DNA from: a virus | Length of the DNA: 33,048 bases | IMG/VR virus record: IMGVR_UViG_3300001533_000997 | Location: 1 to 33,048 of that record | Strand: one strand, 5' to 3' | Shown here: positions 3 to 33,033 of the stretch, in pieces | How positions within the stretch are numbered: position 1 is the stretch's first letter | Layout: each line of letters starts with the position of its first letter | The notes under the pieces: model-generated | Databases searched by the model: none | What the model saw: only the letters and a program-made list of their open reading frames with translations | Told to the model about the DNA's origin: nothing | Position numbers and translations under genes: made by a program

Positions 3-596
3 ACGCTTCTAAACTGCTCAGGATGCGCCACAGCGCGTCGTGCGGCAGAATGGTATAAAGACTGGCGCAATCCGGTAGAGATAGAGCAGCCGCCAGCCGA
101 GCAGCCAGAACAGCCAGAACAGCCAGAACAGCCACAGGAGTCAGACGACCCTCTGCTGCCATTGCCTCCTCCACCTGAACAACCCGTCACGTCCTTGATG
201 CAGTGGGTGCCAGATGATGGGCAGGGGCACGCTGTGCTGCGTGTGCGGGCGGATTTGCTGCCCGTTGGGTACTCGGTAATTACTGCTCGACATCACCAGC
301 ATGTCGATCCAGACGACACGAGCGCGGCTGGCTGGGGGGCTGCGAACAACCATCGGCCTCCGCACCGTATTGTGGGTGGCTGGGCTGAGTGGACATTGCC
401 GTGGAGCGGTGAGGAGTATGCCCTCCGGGCCGCATCATTCAACACTGGATCAGGGACGATTGTAATGGTATTCAACAAGCGGTCACCCAGCGGCGATGTA
501 TCACACTTTATCCGTCCCGAGATTGCATGGGGCGGTGTTGGTGAGCGGATACCCATTGTCAATCATGATAACAAGAACTGGCCAGAAGCACGCTGA
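3..596 (+). CDS. Partial lipoprotein-like phage protein with EQP repeats
   Basis: The reading frame is open from the left edge (first full codon at base 3), so the true start lies outside the window; the TTG at 162 is only an internal codon. The first visible residues read LLNCSGCATARRAAEWYKDW, which resembles a lipobox (SGC followed by a short linker) after a signal peptide that has been cut off. A Pro/Glu/Gln linker with tandem Glu-Gln-Pro units follows, then proline-rich sequence and a ~130-residue globular region rich in Trp and His that I do not recognise. The lipobox-like start, the proline-rich linker and the position before an amidase gene suggest a surface or envelope-associated lipoprotein, possibly lysis-related. 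An outer-membrane spanin is one option, but the C-terminal domain is larger than usual for that family. Function unassigned. Confidence 0.7.
   Translation, partial: TLLNCSGCATARRAAEWYKDWRNPVEIEQPPAEQPEQPEQPEQPQESDDPLLPLPPPPEQPVTSLMQWVPDDGQGHAVLRVRADLLPVGYSVITARHHQHVDPDDTSAAGWGAANNHRPPHRIVGGWAEWTLPWSGEEYALRAASFNTGSGTIVMVFNKRSPSGDVSHFIRPEIAWGGVGERIPIVNHDNKNWPEAR
88..134 (+). repeat. In-frame 9-bp tandem repeat (EQP)
   Basis: The nonamer CAGCCAGAA is repeated in tandem about three times with flanking partial units. It encodes Glu-Gln-Pro repeats in the linker of the lipoprotein-like gene. Because the unit is a multiple of three, copy-number change keeps the frame. Confidence 0.75.
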
Positions 597-614: not shown

Positions 615-1178
615 ATGATCATTATTGCACAGTATCATGGAAAATCTATGTTATCCAAAATGATCCGATGGCAGCAACGGTCTGAAATCAGCCACACGGC
701 AGTCATGCTGGCCAGCGGCTTGACAGAGGCAGTCATATCCTCAGGCATGTCCGACTGGCTGGCTCAGTGTACTCTCTACGAAGCGTGGGGGTCTGTGATG
801 CCTCCTCGTGGCAGCATCTACAAGAGGCGAGGAATTGCCGAGGGGCATACACCCAATACGAAGATTGACCTGTACACGGTCACCTGTGATGGATTCAAGG
901 CACACGACTTCCTCGAAGAGCAGGTAGGGAAGAAATATGACTTCCGTGCACTCATCTCTTTTCTTACACGTCGTGATCGACAAAGGGAAGATGCATGGAT
1001 ATGTTCCGAGCTGGGTTTTATGGCAGCACTGCAAGGAGGAACCAGACTTCTTGAACGCATCGAGGCATACGCGGTATCGCCCGGACTTTTGAATCTCTCG
1101 CCAGTAATGAAACCCTTGGGGGCAACGTGGACAGCGGTGTCACCCATCTTTATGAGGAGTGCGGTATGCCCAAACTGA
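615..1178 (+). CDS. YiiX/C92-like permuted papain-fold amidase
   Basis: This 187-residue protein has the hallmarks of the permuted NlpC/P60 (YaeF/YiiX, C92) hydrolases. An early histidine lies in SEISHTAVM (His27) and a late cysteine in WICSELG (Cys130), the inverted order that defines the permuted group; GKKYDFRALI lies between them, as is typical. Such enzymes cleave amide or thioester bonds in peptides or lipids. In phages they are found near lysis or tail genes, and cell-wall hydrolysis is possible but not shown. There is no signal peptide or membrane segment. A purine-rich ribosome site (AAGGAG) precedes the ATG at 615. Its 3' end overlaps the next gene by 13 bases. Confidence 0.75.
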   Translation: MIIIAQYHGKSMLSKMIRWQQRSEISHTAVMLASGLTEAVISSGMSDWLAQCTLYEAWGSVMPPRGSIYKRRGIAEGHTPNTKIDLYTVTCDGFKAHDFLEEQVGKKYDFRALISFLTRRDRQREDAWICSELGFMAALQGGTRLLERIEAYAVSPGLLNLSPVMKPLGATWTAVSPIFMRSAVCPN

Positions 1179-1519
1179 CTGATCTTGAGAGGCTGGAAAT
1201 GGACGCCTTGACAATGGACGCGGCCAAGCTGACCAATGGGGATTCCGAGAATATATCCCTACAAGGGAAGGTGCTTGGTCGCGTGACAAAGCTGCTGGTC
1301 ACAGTGATCTCGCAGGGGCTGGTCACAGTGGACGAGCTGGATCAGCATACTACCCAGTGCCCGTTGCGTGACAGGCATTACCCGACAACAAAGATCAGGC
1401 TGCCTGGGGGATTCGAGGTCTCAGGGTTTGCGGTACGTGATCTCACGCGCCTCGCCATCCTGATCTGCACTATTCTGATTCTGGCAAGCCAGTTCGGGCT
1501 TCTCCCATACGGGGGATAA
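1166..1519 (+). CDS. Small tail-anchored membrane protein, possible lysis accessory
   Basis: I chose the ATG at 1166 because GAGGAG lies 6 bases upstream; the in-frame GTG at 1127 has no such site and sits deep inside the previous gene. The 117-residue product has a charged N-terminal half with Cys-Pro-Leu in the middle and one C-terminal hydrophobic segment (about residues 95-115), followed by a few residues. That makes it a single-pass, C-tail-anchored protein. Its place directly after an amidase gene fits a holin-like or lysis-regulating role, but nothing in the sequence proves it. No family recognised. Confidence 0.7.
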   Translation: MPKLTDLERLEMDALTMDAAKLTNGDSENISLQGKVLGRVTKLLVTVISQGLVTVDELDQHTTQCPLRDRHYPTTKIRLPGGFEVSGFAVRDLTRLAILICTILILASQFGLLPYGG

Positions 1520-1528
1520 GGAGGCTGT

Positions 1529-2125
1529 ATGAGAGCAGTGATATTCAGTAATGGTCCATCTCTGAATGATTTGACATCAAGGCAGATAGCGACACTGTGT
1601 AAGGTACGTACACCGATGGCTGTAAAGCAGGCAATTTGTGCTGCCCCTGAGTCACAGTATCATTTTATCAATAATGTCAATTTGGCTGACTATCAAGGAA
1701 TAGGGATTCCCCGAAGTTATGCAGTTAGCCGCTCCTGCTTTCGTGATATTATGCCACCAGACTATGAATGGCATGAGCTCCAAGGAAAGGATGGCCTTGT
1801 CAACACTCTTGATTGGGAATCGTCACTGATGCATAACCGCATCCGCCCTTGGGGTCCTGGTATCATGTTTGAGATAGTAATCCCAATGGCAATCAACGAT
1901 GGGTTCAAAGATATCGTAGTGGTCGGGTGGGATATGTCTGACCGTAGTCATGCAATCACCCCTGAGGGAGGGGCAGCGGTTACTCCTGACTGGGAAATCA
2001 CAAAGACTATTGAGGCCAGTGCAGATTATGACAGGTGGCTAAGAGGATTGGGGATCAGAGTCACAATCCTGTCAGAACAGTCCAGCATCCAGATGGAACG
2101 CGTGACGTATCTAGGGGCACTATGA
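1529..2125 (+). CDS. GT42/DUF115-like glycosyltransferase (candidate sialyltransferase)
   Basis: The 198-residue protein opens with VIFSNGPSLNDL, closely resembling the xxGNGPSL opening of GT42 sialyltransferases (Cst-II type) and of DUF115/MAF-type proteins. Later it has a glycine-rich stretch followed by DGFKDIVVVGWDMSD, which matches the position and pattern of the LGYKEIYLxGIDF segment in those enzymes. A C-terminal helix plus beta strand (YDRWLRGLGIRVTIL) also matches. The gene starts 9 bases after the previous stop with AAGGAGG upstream, and overlaps a CMP-sialic-acid synthetase gene by ATGA. That neighbour supplies the CMP-sugar donor used by GT42 enzymes. The family call is from motif memory; acceptor and exact donor are unknown. 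Confidence 0.6.
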   Translation: MRAVIFSNGPSLNDLTSRQIATLCKVRTPMAVKQAICAAPESQYHFINNVNLADYQGIGIPRSYAVSRSCFRDIMPPDYEWHELQGKDGLVNTLDWESSLMHNRIRPWGPGIMFEIVIPMAINDGFKDIVVVGWDMSDRSHAITPEGGAAVTPDWEITKTIEASADYDRWLRGLGIRVTILSEQSSIQMERVTYLGAL

Positions 2126-2796
2126 AACCATCAATCAAAGCTTTGATAGCTGTCAGAAGCGGCAGTGAGAGGGTGAAGGATAAGAATATCCGTCCTTTCG
2201 CTGACTCCTCACTATTGGAGATTAAGGTACGACAGTGCTTGAAGATCTTTGATGGCGTGGTGGTGAGTTCTGATGACTCAAGGATGCTTGATCTTGCATC
2301 AAGTCTAGGTGCAACAGCAATTAAGAGGGATGCAGCATACTGTCATTCAAACACACCTATGTCCGAAGTCTATAGACACATGGCACGTAACTTCCCTGGT
2401 GACATAGTTGCATATTGTAATGCAACCAATCCTATGATTAAAGATCAGACATTATCTGAATGTAAGAGACTGTTCCAGGATTTCTGCTCGGAGGGTCCGG
2501 TGAGTGTCAATACAGTGGCAGACGTGAAGGAGTTCCTGTGGCAGGATGGCACACCATTGAACTATACCCCTGCCGCACAGCCCCGCTCACAGGATCTTCC
2601 AAATATTGTAAGGATCACGTTTGCCTGCTCAATCATCAGTAAGCTGAACATGATGCTGACTGGTAACGTTGTTGGCACAGTCCCCATGTTTGTCAAGACT
2701 GATGACATTGAGTCAATGGACATTGATACTCAGACAGATTTTCAGACATCAGAGATTATGTATCTTAGGCTCCGAAAGGCAGTGAGGTTATTGTGA
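2122..2796 (+). CDS. neuA-like: CMP-N-acetylneuraminate (nonulosonate) cytidylyltransferase
   Basis: This 224-residue protein activates a sialic-acid-type sugar with CTP to give CMP-sugar. It carries the N-terminal nucleotide-binding signature VRSGSERVKDKNIRPF (residues 11-26), the YCNATNPMIKD segment (about 98-108), RSQDLPNIVR (about 155-164) and the C-terminal MDIDTQTDF, all in the order expected for NeuA/KdsB-type cytidylyltransferases. The ATG at 2122 is used because it overlaps the upstream stop (ATGA); the frame is open further upstream but that part has no domain. Length matches the single-domain enzymes of about 220-230 residues. Substrate could be neuraminic, legionaminic or pseudaminic acid. 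No biosynthesis genes for the sugar lie in the window, so it must come from the host or from elsewhere in the genome. Confidence 0.88.
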   Translation: MKPSIKALIAVRSGSERVKDKNIRPFADSSLLEIKVRQCLKIFDGVVVSSDDSRMLDLASSLGATAIKRDAAYCHSNTPMSEVYRHMARNFPGDIVAYCNATNPMIKDQTLSECKRLFQDFCSEGPVSVNTVADVKEFLWQDGTPLNYTPAAQPRSQDLPNIVRITFACSIISKLNMMLTGNVVGTVPMFVKTDDIESMDIDTQTDFQTSEIMYLRLRKAVRLL

Positions 2797-4478
2797 ATGG
2801 TGTCAAGGTAGGTATAGCCCTCTTGAGATGTGGTGAGCCACAGTGTGCGAGACTTCTGGCCAGTCCGGAACTCTCACGCTTCCATTGTGTCCACATTGCA
2901 GAGAATGTTGCGCCATACCATGTGGCAATCAATCAGACGGTTCAGAAGTGTTTTGATTCTGGATCAGACTGGGTAGTGATGTTGGACGGCGACATGGACC
3001 TTGATACTTGTGCCTTTTGGTCAGCCTTTAATGAAGGACTAACCCACACCCATAAGGCCATGTATTTTCGTCTGTATGATCCTTATGTCAGTAAGGTGAT
3101 TGGTAGTCTGAAGGTGGTCACCAAGTCTTGGATGGTGGCAGCTGGATGGTATCAGGACTCAATTTGTACCGACAGGGATGCTGAGCAAAGAGCAAAAGAT
3201 GCTGGCTGCCCTCGTTGGGCCTCCGACGCTGTGGTTGGTACCCATTTTGACGACCCTACTCAGTTTCAAGTATTCAAAAGATTCTTTGTCAGGGGCATCA
3301 AGGTTAAGGCTGGCTACTCTGACCCAGTAGGGGACTATGAGAGGATTCTCAAGGGGGTGGCCTTGGAGTCATACAAGAGAGGACTGAACTGTTCAATCAA
3401 TAATGATCCACATGACCTGCCAATCCTATTATATGAGTACAACGAGATGCTTGGCGACAATGGACTAGTTTGTGGTGTCTGTGCTTGGGGTGAGTACCCA
3501 TACCACACCAGGGACACGCTAAAGGCCACTGATGTACGAAGAGAACTACCTGTTGATTCAGGGATGAAGGCTAACTATATCAACAAACTGGCAGTCAGTG
3601 TGGGCAGGAATATGAAAGTTAAGCACAAGATGTTCTACATCTCGCCAGAGCCTATTGCAGGAGTGATACCAGAGTGCCAGTGGCAGAAGCTTGAGACTCC
3701 GTGCCCCAAAGGCAATCTCCACAAGCTCTCTATGTATAATCCAAAATACACACAACATGGTAGAACGTTCATAACCTTTGACTTGGACAACATCATCATA
3801 GGTGATGTATCTGCAATGCCTGTAGCCATATCTAAGAGCCGAGGATTCATTTGTCGATCGGATCTACCCACTCTCGGTAAGAATATTGCCGGCGGTGACA
3901 TGATTGGTTACACAAAGCAGTTTGCATCATGGATGTGGGCATGGGTCAATGAGAACAGGGATACTGCTGAGTTCCGTAACGTCATCGAAGATGGCATGGA
4001 GAGATTCCTGTATCGCTACATGATCCATAATCACTCAGAGTTCGGGCAATTTTGGCATGAGTTCCTTGGTAAGGATTATGTCCTTGGATGGAAGTCCCAT
4101 CTGCGAGATGGAAGGTCAGCTGGTGGTGATACTCATATCATCTCCGTTTGGGGTGACTGGGCTGTGCATGAACTTGTCTCAATATGTTATGCTGACAATC
4201 TCCCTAACTGGCTCCAGTATTGGGTGGATAGTTATGGAAGAACATCAAATGGGAAGGCTAAGACCGTGAACAAAGATGTGGAAATGTGGAAACTATGTCG
4301 TGCGTCCGAGAACCCACATCAGTTGTTCCTTGATTTGGAATCGGCTGGTATGCCTGTATGGAAAGATCCAGATGGCCAAGTCCTGTATCGGCGAATGAGG
4401 GGTGATGTAATTCGTGTGAAGCCAGATTCAAGTATGCCTCACCCGAACTGTTTGCCTCCAGTGAAAGGTGTATTGTGA
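2793..4478 (+). CDS. Two-domain glycosyltransferase (GT2-like plus GT8-like)
   Basis: The 561-residue protein starts at a GTG that overlaps the previous stop (GTGA). The N-terminal part (about residues 1-220) is a GT-A fold family-2-like domain with DWVVMLDGDMDLD (residues ~60-71), whose acidic cluster is the metal and nucleotide-sugar binding DxD site. The second part (about 225-440) has its own strand-ending acid motif FITFDLDNIIIGD (~326-338), preceded by YINKLAVSVGRN, which resembles GT8-type enzymes. The C-terminal ~120 residues are unassigned. Two DxD-type centres suggest it adds two different sugars or extends a chain. It lies in the glycan cassette and overlaps the terminase gene by GTGA, so it is expressed with the head genes. 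Acceptor unknown. Confidence 0.72.
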   Translation: MNGVKVGIALLRCGEPQCARLLASPELSRFHCVHIAENVAPYHVAINQTVQKCFDSGSDWVVMLDGDMDLDTCAFWSAFNEGLTHTHKAMYFRLYDPYVSKVIGSLKVVTKSWMVAAGWYQDSICTDRDAEQRAKDAGCPRWASDAVVGTHFDDPTQFQVFKRFFVRGIKVKAGYSDPVGDYERILKGVALESYKRGLNCSINNDPHDLPILLYEYNEMLGDNGLVCGVCAWGEYPYHTRDTLKATDVRRELPVDSGMKANYINKLAVSVGRNMKVKHKMFYISPEPIAGVIPECQWQKLETPCPKGNLHKLSMYNPKYTQHGRTFITFDLDNIIIGDVSAMPVAISKSRGFICRSDLPTLGKNIAGGDMIGYTKQFASWMWAWVNENRDTAEFRNVIEDGMERFLYRYMIHNHSEFGQFWHEFLGKDYVLGWKSHLRDGRSAGGDTHIISVWGDWAVHELVSICYADNLPNWLQYWVDSYGRTSNGKAKTVNKDVEMWKLCRASENPHQLFLDLESAGMPVWKDPDGQVLYRRMRGDVIRVKPDSSMPHPNCLPPVKGVL

Positions 4479-6139
4479 ACCAGAATCTAGGACAACTATT
4501 CCGCAACAGACTAAAGACTGGCCTCCAACGGCAGTCTATTCAAAGCTGCAGTCAGTGGGCGGAACTGTATCGGGTGATGGGTCCTCCATTTCCAGGACCA
4601 TACAGCTTCCTTCATCACCCCTGGACTAGAGAGGCTCATGATTGTCCGGCGGAGTTGCTCGTTTGCAAAAAGGCTGCACAGACTGGGTTCACAGAGGCAG
4701 CTCTGAATCGTGCTTTCTATACTATTGACATCCTCGGCTCCAATGTTCTCTATTATCTGCCAACATCTACACCAGATGCTACCAACTTCTCCGCAGCCCG
4801 TTTTGACCCTGCTTTGGATATGTCCCCACATCTCCAGAATCTGTTCTCTGATGTTCGGAATGTTGGACACAAGCGTGCAGGAAATGCCAGCTTGTTCATC
4901 CGTGGCGCACGGTCTAGGTCACAGGCCAAATCTGTTCCTGCCTCTGAAATGATTTTTGACGAGCTTGACGAGATGAATCCAGAGATTGTTGTCTTGGCCC
5001 GTGAGCGCACATCCGGCCAAAACATAGCACGCGAGATGATGCTTTCCACGCCAACGATCGAGGACCACGGAATTGATGTCTATTGGCAGCAATCTTCAAT
5101 GGATAAGTATTTCTTCAAATGCCCTCACTGCGGTAAGTTTGACTATCTCCGATTCCCTGAATCACTTGTCATTACTGCCGAGAAGGAGAACGACCCAAGG
5201 CTGGAAGAGAGTCACCTGATCTGCACACATTGTAAAGGAGTTCTTGATAATGAAGAGAAGCCCATCTGGTTGGCTGAGAGCAACTGTCAGTGGGTGCCGG
5301 AAGTCAGTGATGCACCTGTCCGTGGATTAGGTGTGAATCAGCTATACTCAATGGCTTACCGTGCTCGGCCAGCCGTGATTGCCGGTAAGGTGATTCGTGC
5401 ATCAAATGACCCAGTAGAAGAGCAGGAACTGTACAATTCTAAGCTCGGTGAATGTCATACTGTTGATGGTGCAAAGGTACTGGAGTCAGATGTGAAGGAT
5501 GCCATTGGTGGCTCCAGCAAGATTGACAGGGTTACGCGCCCAGGGTGGTACACAATGGGGGTTGACGTTGGCCCGAAGTGGCTCTATGTAGAGATCACCG
5601 AGTACCTGAGAACTAGCAATAAAAAGATTGTCTATGATTATTCCAACTCCACAATCGCTCAGGTTATACAGGAGTGCAAGGTTGAGCAGTTTGAGGAGCT
5701 CGATGACCTGATGCGGAAGTTTCGTATTACCCACTGTGTTATTGATGCACAACCAGAGGCACGTAAGGCTATGGAGTTTGCCCAGAGATTCTTCGGAATT
5801 GTCAGTCTTTGTTTTTATGCTGATGCAACAGCCACGAAGTTTATACGTGAGGACCGGGAGAAGATGACAATATCAGTTGGCCGGACACCCTGGCTTGATT
5901 CATCCCTCATGAGATTCAAGCGTGGGACAATTAGACTCCCTGCTGATATATCCCTTGACTACAAGAATCATATGCAGGCATTAACAAGAATCTATGAGAA
6001 GGATTCACAAGGGAACCCGACGGGCCGTTATGTTTGTGGCAGTAAGCAAGACCACTTTGCACATGCCAGAAATTATTCGGAGATTGCACTAGAGTTAGCC
6101 CTCAAAGGTGGCAGTAGCCAGGATATGGACAAAATATGA
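4475..6139 (+). CDS. terL: Terminase large subunit (GpA-type)
   Basis: This 554-residue DNA-packaging motor has an N-terminal ATPase with a Walker-A-like CKKAAQTGFTE (~63-73), Walker B EMIFDELDEM (~158-167) and a coupling motif STPT (~189-192). A four-cysteine zinc site follows, CPHC (~214) and CTHC (~249), a feature of the lambda GpA branch. The C-terminal RNase-H-like nuclease shows GVDVGP (~361), VIDAQPE (~425) and DHFAHARNY (~525). It cuts concatemeric DNA and pumps it into the prohead through the portal, whose gene comes next with an ATGA overlap. It begins at GTG 4475, overlapping the upstream glycosyltransferase stop. No small terminase is visible in the window. Confidence 0.95.
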   Translation: MNQNLGQLFRNRLKTGLQRQSIQSCSQWAELYRVMGPPFPGPYSFLHHPWTREAHDCPAELLVCKKAAQTGFTEAALNRAFYTIDILGSNVLYYLPTSTPDATNFSAARFDPALDMSPHLQNLFSDVRNVGHKRAGNASLFIRGARSRSQAKSVPASEMIFDELDEMNPEIVVLARERTSGQNIAREMMLSTPTIEDHGIDVYWQQSSMDKYFFKCPHCGKFDYLRFPESLVITAEKENDPRLEESHLICTHCKGVLDNEEKPIWLAESNCQWVPEVSDAPVRGLGVNQLYSMAYRARPAVIAGKVIRASNDPVEEQELYNSKLGECHTVDGAKVLESDVKDAIGGSSKIDRVTRPGWYTMGVDVGPKWLYVEITEYLRTSNKKIVYDYSNSTIAQVIQECKVEQFEELDDLMRKFRITHCVIDAQPEARKAMEFAQRFFGIVSLCFYADATATKFIREDREKMTISVGRTPWLDSSLMRFKRGTIRLPADISLDYKNHMQALTRIYEKDSQGNPTGRYVCGSKQDHFAHARNYSEIALELALKGGSSQDMDKI

Positions 6140-7854
6140 AACTGATTAAAAGACACGAACTGACGCATCCCTTCTACGATAAAAGTATCGATGACTGGAC
6201 AAAGTTCCGTCATGTCCTTGAAGGAGGAAGGACTTTCGTCAATAAGTACCTGGAGATGTTCTCTGATCGTGAAGATCAGACAGACTTTGCACGAAGGAAG
6301 AAGATGGCCTACTGTCCTGGACATGCCGAGGCCGCCCTGGTAGATATCAGGAATACCATCTACCAGCGTATGCGTGACATTGTACGGGTAACCAATGTGG
6401 AGAGTTTCAATCTCTGCAAGACAGGTGACTATAAGGGAGTCGACAATCGCAGTCTGTCGATGAACAGCTTCATGGGTCGGATTGTTCTGACTGAGCTTTT
6501 ATTTCTTGGCAGGGTCGGTATCTTTGTCGACCGCAGTCCTCTCTATGAGACAGCCAAAACCAAGGCTGAAAGGATGCAGTATCATCCTTATATGTACATC
6601 GTAGCCACAGAGGACATTCTTTCATGGACCTATGATGATAATGAGCAACTGACCAGATTGCTACTCAGTTATGAGAAGGATACTTTTGACGAAAAGTATG
6701 GTCTGGTGACGGGCACTGAAACTGCCTACAAACTGTTCCAATTAACTGATTCTGGGGTGGTGGTTACACTCTTCGACACACACATGACTCAAGAGAATCA
6801 AGTCACTCTTGATTTGGGGAGGATACCTTTTACGATCCTGGATACATCTCGGCCCCTGCTTAAGAATATTGCCGACTATCAAGTGGCACTCTTGAACATG
6901 GAATCGAGTGATGTTACGTACTCGATCCGTGGAAACTTTGCTTTCTATACAGAGCAGTATGATCCACGCAATGATACATATGCCAGGGGTGCTTTCACGG
7001 CAGATGGTGACGACTCTGGTGCTGTCGATGAGACCACTAAGAGAGACCTGAATGTCAAGACAGGACACACTGTTGGTAGACGGTATCCTACAGGGACAGA
7101 GAGACCAGACTTCATCAATCCTTCACCTGAACCTCTGAGGGCATCAATGGAGAAGGAGTCTACAATCAGGAGTGATATCCGCAAACTGATTAACCTTAAT
7201 CTCTCGACCCTTGAGCCTACTAGAGCCAGTGCTGACTCCAAGAAGCTGGACTTTCGCGGCCTGGAGAGTGGACTGTCATACATCGGAATGGAGATTGAGT
7301 TTGCTGAGCGTGACACTATTTCCCACTGGGCACAGTATGACAATGTGTCTGATGTCAGTATCATGGTTCAGTATCCTACCAACTATGACCCAAAGAGTGA
7401 CGATGAGCGCATTGCCGAGGCTGAGAAGTACATTGAGCAGGCAGAGAAGGTCACTCTTGAGTCCTACCGTAAGGAGATGGTCAAACATGCCATGCGTGTC
7501 CTCCTGTCTGACAAGATTAAGGATGACAGGATGCAGGCAATCTATGACGAGATAGACAGTAAGCCAATCATTTTGTCTGGAGTGAAGATGATCATCGAGG
7601 CACATCGTGAGGGTCTGGTCAGTGACGAGCTGGCAGCTAAGCTGATTGGCTACCCTGAAGGTGATGTCAAGCAGGCCGCTGAGGATCATGCGAAACGTGC
7701 AGCCCGTATTGTTCAGGCCCAAACTAATGCTGCCAATCATCCCAGAGGAGCGGGCGACTTGGATGAGGACAAGAACAGTGACAGGGTACAAAAGGAGAAA
7801 GTCACGGATCTTGACCAGGATACGAGATCAGGTAAGAGAGGTGAGGCACAATGA
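6136..7854 (+). CDS. Portal protein (DUF4055-like)
   Basis: The 572-residue protein lies directly after the terminase, overlapping it by ATGA, which is the normal place for the portal. Internal features fit: an N-terminal wing region with EGGRTFVNKYLEMF, a central beta-rich stem and clip region (FILDTSRPLLKNIADYQVALLNMESSD), and a long helical C-terminal region with many charged residues (AEKYIEQAEKVTLESYRKEM). The portal forms the dodecameric ring at one capsid vertex, through which DNA enters and leaves and to which the connector binds. The last ~60 residues are highly charged and probably disordered. Assigning the DUF4055 branch is from memory of the family pattern. Confidence 0.85.
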   Translation: MKLIKRHELTHPFYDKSIDDWTKFRHVLEGGRTFVNKYLEMFSDREDQTDFARRKKMAYCPGHAEAALVDIRNTIYQRMRDIVRVTNVESFNLCKTGDYKGVDNRSLSMNSFMGRIVLTELLFLGRVGIFVDRSPLYETAKTKAERMQYHPYMYIVATEDILSWTYDDNEQLTRLLLSYEKDTFDEKYGLVTGTETAYKLFQLTDSGVVVTLFDTHMTQENQVTLDLGRIPFTILDTSRPLLKNIADYQVALLNMESSDVTYSIRGNFAFYTEQYDPRNDTYARGAFTADGDDSGAVDETTKRDLNVKTGHTVGRRYPTGTERPDFINPSPEPLRASMEKESTIRSDIRKLINLNLSTLEPTRASADSKKLDFRGLESGLSYIGMEIEFAERDTISHWAQYDNVSDVSIMVQYPTNYDPKSDDERIAEAEKYIEQAEKVTLESYRKEMVKHAMRVLLSDKIKDDRMQAIYDEIDSKPIILSGVKMIIEAHREGLVSDELAAKLIGYPEGDVKQAAEDHAKRAARIVQAQTNAANHPRGAGDLDEDKNSDRVQKEKVTDLDQDTRSGKRGEAQ

Positions 7855-24188: not shown

Positions 24189-24202
24189 GACTTCTTCTCC
24201 TT
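24185..24202 (-). repeat. 18-bp ribosome-site repeat, copy 2
   Basis: Identical to 23943-23960 and in the same orientation. It covers the ribosome site and start of the 81-aa gene and overlaps the end of the upstream methylase gene. Confidence 0.95.
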
Positions 24203-25052
24203 AATCTTTAATCCACAACACTTCCGTAGCCCTACTCCGTCCCTGGCCTAACTTGGTCCCTTCAGACCCTCGTGAGGTCACCAACACTGGATACTCGTAT
24301 CTGTCTGACCAAGGGTACTTGTCATACAGTTCATGTGGGTAGCCACTCACGGCAACAAATCCCTGACACTGAAACACAGTATCCAGGAATCTTTTGTGGT
24401 CAGCCATAGACATGCTGTAACGGTAGGCCCCCAGGTCTGTCAGCAGGTAAGGCGGGTCACAGTAGAAAACTGCCTCCGGTGAATCATAGTACGTCATACA
24501 CTCGTACCAGCCCTGATTCTCCACCTGCACCCTTTTGAAGCGTCGATGCACTTCCCATATCTGTGGGATACGGTTAGTGAGCTTCCCAGCTACTGGTGAT
24601 ATGTCTTTGGCCCGTCCCCAGTTACGACCTACCCCACTGAATGAGTATGACATCATGTACAACCATCGGCCTGCTCGCTCTACAGGATCATTCACATCCT
24701 GCCAGGTCTGCTGACAAAAGATAAAATCCTCTTTGCTGTGGACGGTCATCTCCACCCAGGCAACGAGCTTCCGTGTCAACTCTTCCTCTCTCATACATCG
24801 ATAGAAAGCCACCACACCAGCATATCGGTCATTGAACACCTCCATCTTCGATGGCTTCCTGTTCAGGAGAACAGAAGCAGAGCCTCCGAACGGCTCGATA
24901 TACTTGTCAGTATATGGGAGCATTGGAAGTATCAGGTGCATAGAACGAAGCTTGGAACCGGCATATCCGAAGGGAGCACGGACAAAGCCAGTGGTCCCCT
25001 TCTCAGTCTCCTGATCCAGTTCATCAAATAGATTAGTAAGATTCTTGCTCAT
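24201..25052 (-). CDS. D12-class adenine-N6 DNA methyltransferase (Dam-like), first copy
   Basis: The 283-residue protein uses the D12 order: an AdoMet/N-terminal motif FGYAGSKLRSM, YIEPFGGSASVLLNR and a catalytic motif YCDPPYLL (about residue 196-203), with VAVSGYPHELYD near the end. It methylates adenine in a short site, often GATC. I use ATG 25052 because GGGAG lies about 5 bases upstream; the longer ORF from 25091 overlaps a 52-aa gene. It lies two genes from a second Dam-like gene, so one may serve a different site. No restriction endonuclease is next to it. Confidence 0.9.
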   Translation of the reverse strand: MSKNLTNLFDELDQETEKGTTGFVRAPFGYAGSKLRSMHLILPMLPYTDKYIEPFGGSASVLLNRKPSKMEVFNDRYAGVVAFYRCMREEELTRKLVAWVEMTVHSKEDFIFCQQTWQDVNDPVERAGRWLYMMSYSFSGVGRNWGRAKDISPVAGKLTNRIPQIWEVHRRFKRVQVENQGWYECMTYYDSPEAVFYCDPPYLLTDLGAYRYSMSMADHKRFLDTVFQCQGFVAVSGYPHELYDKYPWSDRYEYPVLVTSRGSEGTKLGQGRSRATEVLWIKD

Positions 25053-25191
25053 CATCACTCCCTTGTTGGTTGAAATCAAACACATGTCCACAATTCACAC
25101 AGACGAGGTAGTCACCATATCCCTCATCAGTCTGCCCTACTCTCTGCTCTATCTGCCCGTCACATTCGGGGCATCTTTCGTCATCAATCAT
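25033..25191 (-). CDS. 52-aa zinc-ribbon protein
   Basis: A short gene fits exactly between the two methylase genes. The ATG at 25191 overlaps the upstream methylase stop (ATGA), with GAGG before it, and the TAA ends inside the next methylase's start region. The product has CPEC near residues 7-10 and CVNCGHVF near 31-38, a four-cysteine zinc ribbon, with an acidic C-terminus. Such ribbons bind nucleic acid or a partner protein. It may act with the methylases, but that is inferred from position only. I deduced it by translating the minus strand by hand. Confidence 0.8.
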   Translation of the reverse strand: MIDDERCPECDGQIEQRVGQTDEGYGDYLVCVNCGHVFDFNQQGSDDEQESY

Positions 25192-25934
25192 GGCTGCCTC
25201 ACATACAGTCTTTCGACTGTTTTACTGTCCTTGTGATACTTAGAGAGTGTAGTTGCAACCTTGCAGTCTTTTACCTTTGTCCAGGGGTATCCATCATAGA
25301 GATCACTTGGGTACCCACTTACAGCGAAAAAGTTTGGTTGAGCGAAGAGCCTGTCAAGGAGCCTCTTATGTTCCTTCTGCCCAAAGCCTCCGGCCATTGT
25401 TTGGTAAGGGTCTCTGGTGCAGAGATATGGTGGGTCACAATAGATAACTGTATCAGGATAATCTAACCAAAGGGTTAGGGCATCCTGGCTGGTGACGGTC
25501 ACTCCCTGTAATCTCTCATGCCAGGCCCAAAGAAGAGGGATTCTATCAGACAGATCACTGACAGTTTTCCCGCGCCCCCAGTACTCACAAAGGGAGGAGA
25601 AAGAGTATCGGCTCCGGTATATGTAAGCAAAAGCCGCCTCTGGTCCAACGCCATCCATCGACGCCTCGAAAGATATGAATTGCTCCTTAGCATTGACAGA
25701 CCAGATCATCAGCTCTTCCAGCCTCTGTGGGCCTTTCTGGATAACTTGAAGCAGATTGATCATCCGTGGATTCAAGTCATTGTAGATCTCCCTTGCCACC
25801 CGTTTCTTGTTTCCAAGAACAGCACAAGAGCCACCAAATGGCTCGATGTAAGTTGAACCTTCAGGCAGACTCTCAAGAATCCACGGAATGATCCTTCGTT
25901 TGCCTCCTCTGTAATTAACCAATGGGTTCAACAT
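25188..25934 (-). CDS. D12-class adenine-N6 DNA methyltransferase (Dam-like), second copy
   Basis: The 248-residue protein opens with NPLVNYRGGKRRIIPWI, an AdoMet-binding motif, followed by TYIEPFGGSCAVLGNKK and the catalytic YCDPPYLC, and ends with FFAVSGYPSDLYDGYPW. It is the same family as the other methylase (24201-25052) but clearly diverged, and lacks its N-terminal extension. The start overlaps the end of the repeat-containing gene by 7 bases (shared ATGTTGA) and its stop overlaps the zinc-ribbon start (ATGA). Translation of this gene may thus depend on translation of the broken gene upstream. Confidence 0.9.
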   Translation of the reverse strand: MLNPLVNYRGGKRRIIPWILESLPEGSTYIEPFGGSCAVLGNKKRVAREIYNDLNPRMINLLQVIQKGPQRLEELMIWSVNAKEQFISFEASMDGVGPEAAFAYIYRSRYSFSSLCEYWGRGKTVSDLSDRIPLLWAWHERLQGVTVTSQDALTLWLDYPDTVIYCDPPYLCTRDPYQTMAGGFGQKEHKRLLDRLFAQPNFFAVSGYPSDLYDGYPWTKVKDCKVATTLSKYHKDSKTVERLYVRQP

Positions 25935-32950: not shown

Positions 32951-33033
32951 CTATGAGACAAAGTCAAGAGACAAGAGACAAGAGACAAAAGTCAAGAGAA
33001 GAGTTGAAAAGAGAAGAGTTGAAAAGAGGATGG
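32951..33033 (+). repeat. Purine-rich leader with short tandem repeats
   Basis: An almost pure A/G tract with about three AAGAGAC units and two and a half copies of a 15-mer (AAGAGAAGAGTTGAA, 32994-33030). It runs into ATG codons at 33030 and 33042, one of which may start the next gene beyond the window. Confidence 0.75.

Follow-up and report, generated by a model that had tools for sequence, protein, structure and literature searches.

In a tailed phage, three genes of the late operon directly precede the terminase gene; the first two probably encode a module that activates an ulosonic acid as a CMP-sugar and transfers it to an acceptor (probability about 0.6). The strongest result of the analysis is genomic linkage: relatives of the first gene product, P0001, are encoded close to a cytidylyltransferase gene in other viral records, and the cytidylyltransferase itself has been exchanged and yet retained.

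Organization of the locus

The window, i.e. the entire stretch of DNA analysed, is a possibly incomplete IMG/VR record of 33,048 bases. Its genes for the terminase large subunit (TerL), portal, P22-like coat protein, tape measure protein, two Dam-like methyltransferases, MazG, primase and ParB identify it as a tailed phage. The left part of the window contains the following features:

3–596 (+): 197-aa open frame rich in P, E and Q, running off the window start; no Pfam family
615–1178 (+): 187-aa YiiX/C92-like (permuted papain-like) protein, probably lysis related; phrog_1128, 3.9e-14
1166–1519 (+): 117-aa holin-like protein with one hydrophobic C-terminal segment; maximal 19-residue hydropathy 2.25, residue 96
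1529–2125 (+): P0001, 198-aa putative CMP-ulosonate transferase with a predicted GT42/Maf/MptE-like fold; based on relatives, AlphaFold2 model and linkage
2122–2796 (+): P0002, 224-aa NeuA-like CMP-ulosonate synthetase (cytidylyltransferase); PF02348, 3.5e-13
2793–4478 (+): P0003, 561-aa cytosolic protein, perhaps a two-domain glycosyltransferase; relative in L003
4475–6139 (+): terminase large subunit (TerL); Pfam GpA_ATPase 6.4e-30, phrog_675 2.1e-73
6136–7854 (+): portal protein; phrog_145, 1.1e-33

The initial annotation had described three mutually overlapping frames that also overlap the terminase gene. This layout is established by the coordinates (1529–2125, 2122–2796 and 2793–4478, plus strand), with 4 bases shared at every junction from P0001 through P0002, P0003 and TerL to the portal gene (2122/2125, 2793/2796, 4475/4478 and 6136/6139). 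Start codons are ATG for P0002 (2122) and the portal gene (6136), and GTG for P0003 (2793) and TerL (4475). For P0002, ATG 2122 is most likely the start rather than GTG 2035, because the NeuA motif begins directly after this ATG; GTG 2035 would place 29 extra residues of P0002 inside P0001. A foreign base composition of the cassette was considered and rejected, since its GC content (0.45–0.48) is near that of the window (0.49) and of the TerL and portal genes (0.48), giving no sign of recent import. Promoter and terminator scans produced no excess over shuffled sequence.

Among the upstream genes, the holin-like protein matches no Pfam or PHROG family, and the counterpart of the YiiX/C92-like protein in L003, the closest relative phage, has a Peptidase_C92 match at 0.004. 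Farther to the right, two neighbouring genes for D12-class (Dam-like) adenine methyltransferases (24201–25091 and 25188–25934, minus strand) are apparently paralogous. Short purine-rich direct repeats, gagacaaaagtcaagaga and gaagagttgaaaag, are found at the right end of the window (32960–33030), beyond ParB.

P0002 is a NeuA-type cytidylyltransferase

The assignment of P0002 to the NeuA-type cytidylyltransferases, already proposed in the initial annotation, is borne out by profile comparisons. P0002 matches Pfam CTP_transf_3 (PF02348) at 3.5e-13 (50.3 bits, cut-off 22.6). A profile made from P0002 and its relatives in L044 and L054 matches NeuA proteins in the PDB over profile positions 4–213 with E-values of 4.8e-24 to 1.5e-12, the best being PpNeuA (4.8e-24), followed among others by the mouse (3e-19) and Neisseria (1.7e-16) enzymes, whereas KdsB is matched at 1.4e-4 only, over positions 5–125. 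P0002 also retains residues that align with those of NeuA, namely, Arg12, Lys21 and the metal-binding pair D200-I201-D202 (metal Asp 209/211 in Neisseria). At the same time, the nearest annotated NeuA of the phage collection shares only ~26% identity with P0002, and the match of P0002 to NCBIfam PseF (5.5e-20), at 72 bits, lies under the equivalog cut-off of 205.7.

A further difference concerns substrate choice. Asn100 of P0002, within the CNATNP stretch, occupies the position of Gln104 of Neisseria NeuA, so that the glutamine characteristic of a CMP-Neu5Ac synthetase proper is replaced. In the Neisseria enzyme, the Q104N substitution increases the apparent Km for Neu5Ac by a factor of at least 100 (PMC2901514). 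Neu5Ac is thus doubtful as a substrate, and P0002 probably acts on another ulosonic acid. For the sialic-acid-like sugar previously proposed for this phage, a sialic acid proper is a plausible candidate, even though the glutamine which Neisseria NeuA needs for Neu5Ac is replaced. The asparagine was also considered as a mark of the P0002 clade and rejected as such, since this position is occupied by Gln in the L044 relative and by Ala in that of L054; Asn is likewise found in the distant synthetases of L018 and L019.

Predicted fold of P0001

P0001 had been described as a GT42/DUF115-like transferase. Its sequence alone has no significant family match (MptE-like, 0.029 and 14.6 bits; PHROG sialyltransferase, 0.14), and viral scans with single P0001 or P0002 sequences gave no matches, so that alignments were required. 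Access to the P0001 family came from scanning viral sequences with P0001 together with its L003 relative (38–41% identical). Thirty out of 31 aligned members match Pfam MptE-like (PF01973) at E < 0.01, the best at 9.3e-10; the scores of the nearest relatives of P0001 lie under the Pfam gathering score of 34.6 bits. The L003 relative, P0007, matches the PHROG alpha-2,3-sialyltransferase family at 2.4e-4. By contrast, Pfam CST-I (PF06002) is matched neither by P0001 nor by the 31 members, with weak matches only in other neighbouring proteins, and the family profile found no match among PDB sequences. Within the family, H141 is near-invariant.

An AlphaFold2 model of P0001 based on the 31-member alignment reached a pLDDT of 80.4 and a pTM of 0.83, whereas a two-sequence alignment gave a useless model (pLDDT 40.6). 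In VIA-align comparisons of the former model, the top match is the Maf glycosyltransferase (Z 12.0, 173 residues), followed by the CstII sialyltransferase (Z 10.6, rmsd 4.0, 172 aligned residues), MptE (8sd5; Z 9.8, 142 residues) and thiamine pyrophosphokinase (Z 9.7, 124 residues). Mammalian sialyltransferases score Z 7.7–8.8 and the first unrelated fold Z 4.8. Foldseek returned nothing under E 0.001 from the PDB, where its highest-ranked entry, with TM < 0.3, was dismissed as an unrelated dehydrogenase; in BFVD, the model matches phage proteins annotated as MptE-like. The structural comparison proposed for the 198-aa protein thus agrees with a GT42-type fold, reached through relatives and a predicted model. 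These data support a GT42/Maf/MptE-like fold for P0001 and suggest that it is likely to be a CMP-ulosonate transferase.

The Maf family attaches nonulosonic acids to flagellin. Compared with Maf from Magnetospirillum (5mu5), the P0001 model displays the same fold and both proteins are cytosolic, but the identity is 14%, P0001 corresponds to the core domain only, at a third of the Maf length and without the flanking Maf domains, and its gene adjoins that of terminase rather than flagellar genes. CstII of CAZy family GT42 (1ro7) acts beside a CMP-sialate synthetase, as P0001 adjoins P0002; here the likeness is one of fold, seen in a predicted model at 14–16% identity.

Linkage of P0001 relatives to cytidylyltransferases

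When whole records were searched with the Pfam model, a PF02348 gene scoring over the cut-off was present in all 26 other viral records tested that encode a P0001 relative. Exactly one such gene occurs in 24 of the 26, and all are on the same strand as the P0001 relative, separated from it by 75–4518 bases on contigs of 20–181 kb. Under random placement, the combined probability of this linkage is ~2e-18, a value that overstates independence, since some of the records are related. None of 14 TerL-matched records carries a PF02348 gene, although many of these are short, making the control a modest one. With a home-made cytidylyltransferase profile, a same-strand gene was found within 8 kb in all but two of the contigs that the viral scan for P0001 relatives returned. 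In both exceptions, the contig listed as L003, L016 and L017 and that of L028, the contig end lies near the P0001 relative; the 14.9-kb contig of L003, on which no cytidylyltransferase was found, starts just upstream.

Considering 24 clusters, the window included, the cytidylyltransferase is found in 23 and lies directly upstream in 9. A condensing enzyme is commonly present as well, either NeuB (13/24) or an HMGL-like aldolase (7/24), never both, and L044 has an HpcH/HpaI aldolase in their place. The tree of P0001 relatives groups L036, L042, L044, L045 and L054, whereas their cytidylyltransferases are spread over three different branches, that of L036 being long. This distribution indicates that the partner was swapped yet retained, which, together with the linkage in 26/26 records, upholds the suggested functional tie between the 198-aa protein and a CMP-sugar synthetase. 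In the 44 loci with P0002-type synthetases, the gene directly after often encodes another MptE-like or a GT29 protein.

Two kinds of gene fusion were observed near or within P0001 relatives. In L023 (5032–6783) and also in L021, L025, L029, L030, L035, L036, L042 and L045, a single protein encoded near a P0001 relative combines an HMGL-like aldolase with a cytidylyltransferase; this phage protein could both synthesise and activate an ulosonate in one chain. In L018 (6678–8648), L019 (6588–8687) and L034 (6558–8648), a GT4 glycosyltransferase carries a P0001-like domain at its C-terminus, and the next gene is that of NeuB.

P0003 and related loci

P0003 has one relative, encoded in L003 and 46–47% identical. 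The whole protein matches no Pfam or PHROG family and its halves match no Pfam family, its profile has no PDB match, and hhalign comparison with two phage glycan-cluster alignments revealed no similarity. The earlier description of this 561-aa protein as a double glycosyltransferase is not sustained by these searches: what was found are two DxD-like stretches (MLDGDMDL and FDLDNIIIG), of which MLDGDM and FDLDN are conserved in the L003 relative, and a non-significant Glycos_transf_2 match (0.07–0.08) in that relative. P0003 is thus a possible glycosyltransferase. Homologues of both P0001 and P0003 are present in L003 and, since they are conserved there though other genes lie between them, the two proteins may work together.

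L006, which is more distantly related, carries three further glycosyltransferase-like genes, so named from sequence, at 711–3131, upstream of lysis-type genes and TerL. The region upstream of TerL therefore appears to hold variable glycan cargo.

Source of the sugar

The absence of sugar biosynthesis genes, pointed out in the initial annotation, is confirmed for three condensing-enzyme families, as NeuB, HMGL-like aldolase and HpcH/HpaI aldolase are all missing from the 33-kb record, which may itself be a fragment. Neither NeuB nor the HMGL-like aldolase is found in L003, L044 or L054 either. On the simplest reading, the sugar would most likely be supplied by the host, with the proviso that a fragmentary record makes the lack of synthesis genes no proof. 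Several ulosonic acids are possible, because Asn replaces Gln in P0002 and because NeuB, an HMGL-like aldolase or an HpcH/HpaI aldolase occurs as the partner in relatives.

Proposed mechanism and alternative explanations

According to the reading we favour, P0002 would join CTP to an ulosonic (2-keto-3-deoxy) acid, yielding a CMP-ulosonate, from which P0001, as a minimal GT42/Maf-type transferase, would move the sugar to an acceptor; the glycan that serves as acceptor is probably built or lengthened by P0003. Because the 4-base overlaps tie translation of the cassette to that of terminase and portal, the enzymes would be made during head and tail building. Hydropathy analysis reveals no evident membrane segment in P0001, P0002 or P0003, and transfer would thus be cytosolic, as in the case of Maf and flagellin. 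Given the late-operon position, from which the initial annotation likewise argued for virion decoration, we put a virion protein as the target at only slightly below even odds. That position and the lack of membrane segments fit Maf-like cytosolic glycosylation of virion proteins and are also compatible with lipid-linked host glycans.

The host envelope is a less probable target, the remaining probability being left to others. If the same enzymes were directed at a host surface glycan or lipid-linked precursor late in infection, with P0003 extending the host chain, they might stop progeny from re-adsorbing to debris or block superinfection. Larger phages lend this some weight, since their P0001 relatives lie in long glycan clusters with epimerase, aminotransferase, GT2 and GT4 genes, resembling LPS or capsule islands, and, among solved enzymes that use a carbohydrate acceptor, CstII (Z 10.6) is the closest. 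Here, however, the cassette is joined by overlaps to the terminase and portal genes, and the window proteins scanned include no flippase, polymerase or membrane transferase; we consider a host-glycan target less likely than a virion protein.

A different activity for P0001 has to be weighed too, as its fold group includes proteins other than glycosyltransferases, namely, MptE, the archaeal 6-hydroxymethylpterin diphosphokinase, and thiamine pyrophosphokinases. MptE-like is the sole Pfam family matched in number by P0001 relatives, and the Z-scores of MptE (9.8) and thiamine pyrophosphokinases (9.7) are close to that of CstII. Were P0001 a pyrophosphokinase, the neighbouring cytidylyltransferase would serve something else, which is hard to reconcile with its linkage in 26/26 records and with NeuB or an aldolase in 20 of the 24 clusters. 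In addition, Maf and CstII align over ~30 more residues of P0001 than MptE does, and no pterin genes are seen nearby, making this explanation improbable. Action on DNA is more improbable still: P0002 would be an auxiliary metabolic gene for an activated sugar, with P0001 and P0003 acting on phage DNA, for instance on modified bases. Phage glycosyltransferases do modify DNA, and the window encodes two Dam-like methyltransferases, but known DNA glucosyltransferases use UDP-sugars, no hydroxymethyl-base pathway is seen, and the cassette belongs to the late rather than the replication operon.

Relation to known phage systems and implications

The individual kinds of enzyme in the proposed CMP-ulosonate module are known. 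What the literature searched does not describe is their coupling in a phage, a transferase of such minimal size and the exchange of the sugar-making enzyme; nor did we find there any publication on phage CMP-sialate synthetases. When 50,697 deposited phage records were searched by tblastn with four members of the P0001 family, none of the four gave a match. For the NeuB of L018, matches in the phage collection are confined to two uncultured virus records and a Moritella contig. The former, ~49% identical, are in LR756508.1 (484 kb, uncultured large phage) and MH319754.1 (single-cell marine virus); the latter, FPLJ01000048.1, was discarded as a phage neighbour, being a bacterial capsule contig of Moritella viscosa filed as a phage record. 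Phage genes acting on a nonulosonic acid are exemplified by EpaA/EpaB, which epimerise pseudaminic acid; they change a sugar of the host capsule (PMC12053666), whereas the cassette described here would activate and transfer a sugar and is placed in a late operon. A global-ocean survey of viral metabolic genes (PMC11360552) discarded contigs that carry islands of glycosyltransferase and nucleotidyltransferase genes, since these might not be viral, and such modules may thus have been filtered from view.

Tentatively, and with odds clearly against rather than near even, the P0001 family might represent widespread, hitherto undescribed phage CMP-ulosonate transferases, consisting of a minimal Maf/GT42 core that is nearly always coupled to a cytidylyltransferase, with the sugar-making enzyme exchanged (NeuB, fused HMGL-like aldolase, HpcH/HpaI aldolase or none), and glycosylating virion proteins with ulosonic acids; in the window, the system would have shrunk to two enzymes operating on host sugar. 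If the proposed function is correct, phages own the means to activate and attach sialic-acid-like sugars, which could alter the way in which hosts, defences or grazers see virions, or the appearance of infected cells to other phages. The pairing of P0001 relatives with cytidylyltransferases recurs in many uncultured viruses, and its two-gene form is small enough for in vitro study.
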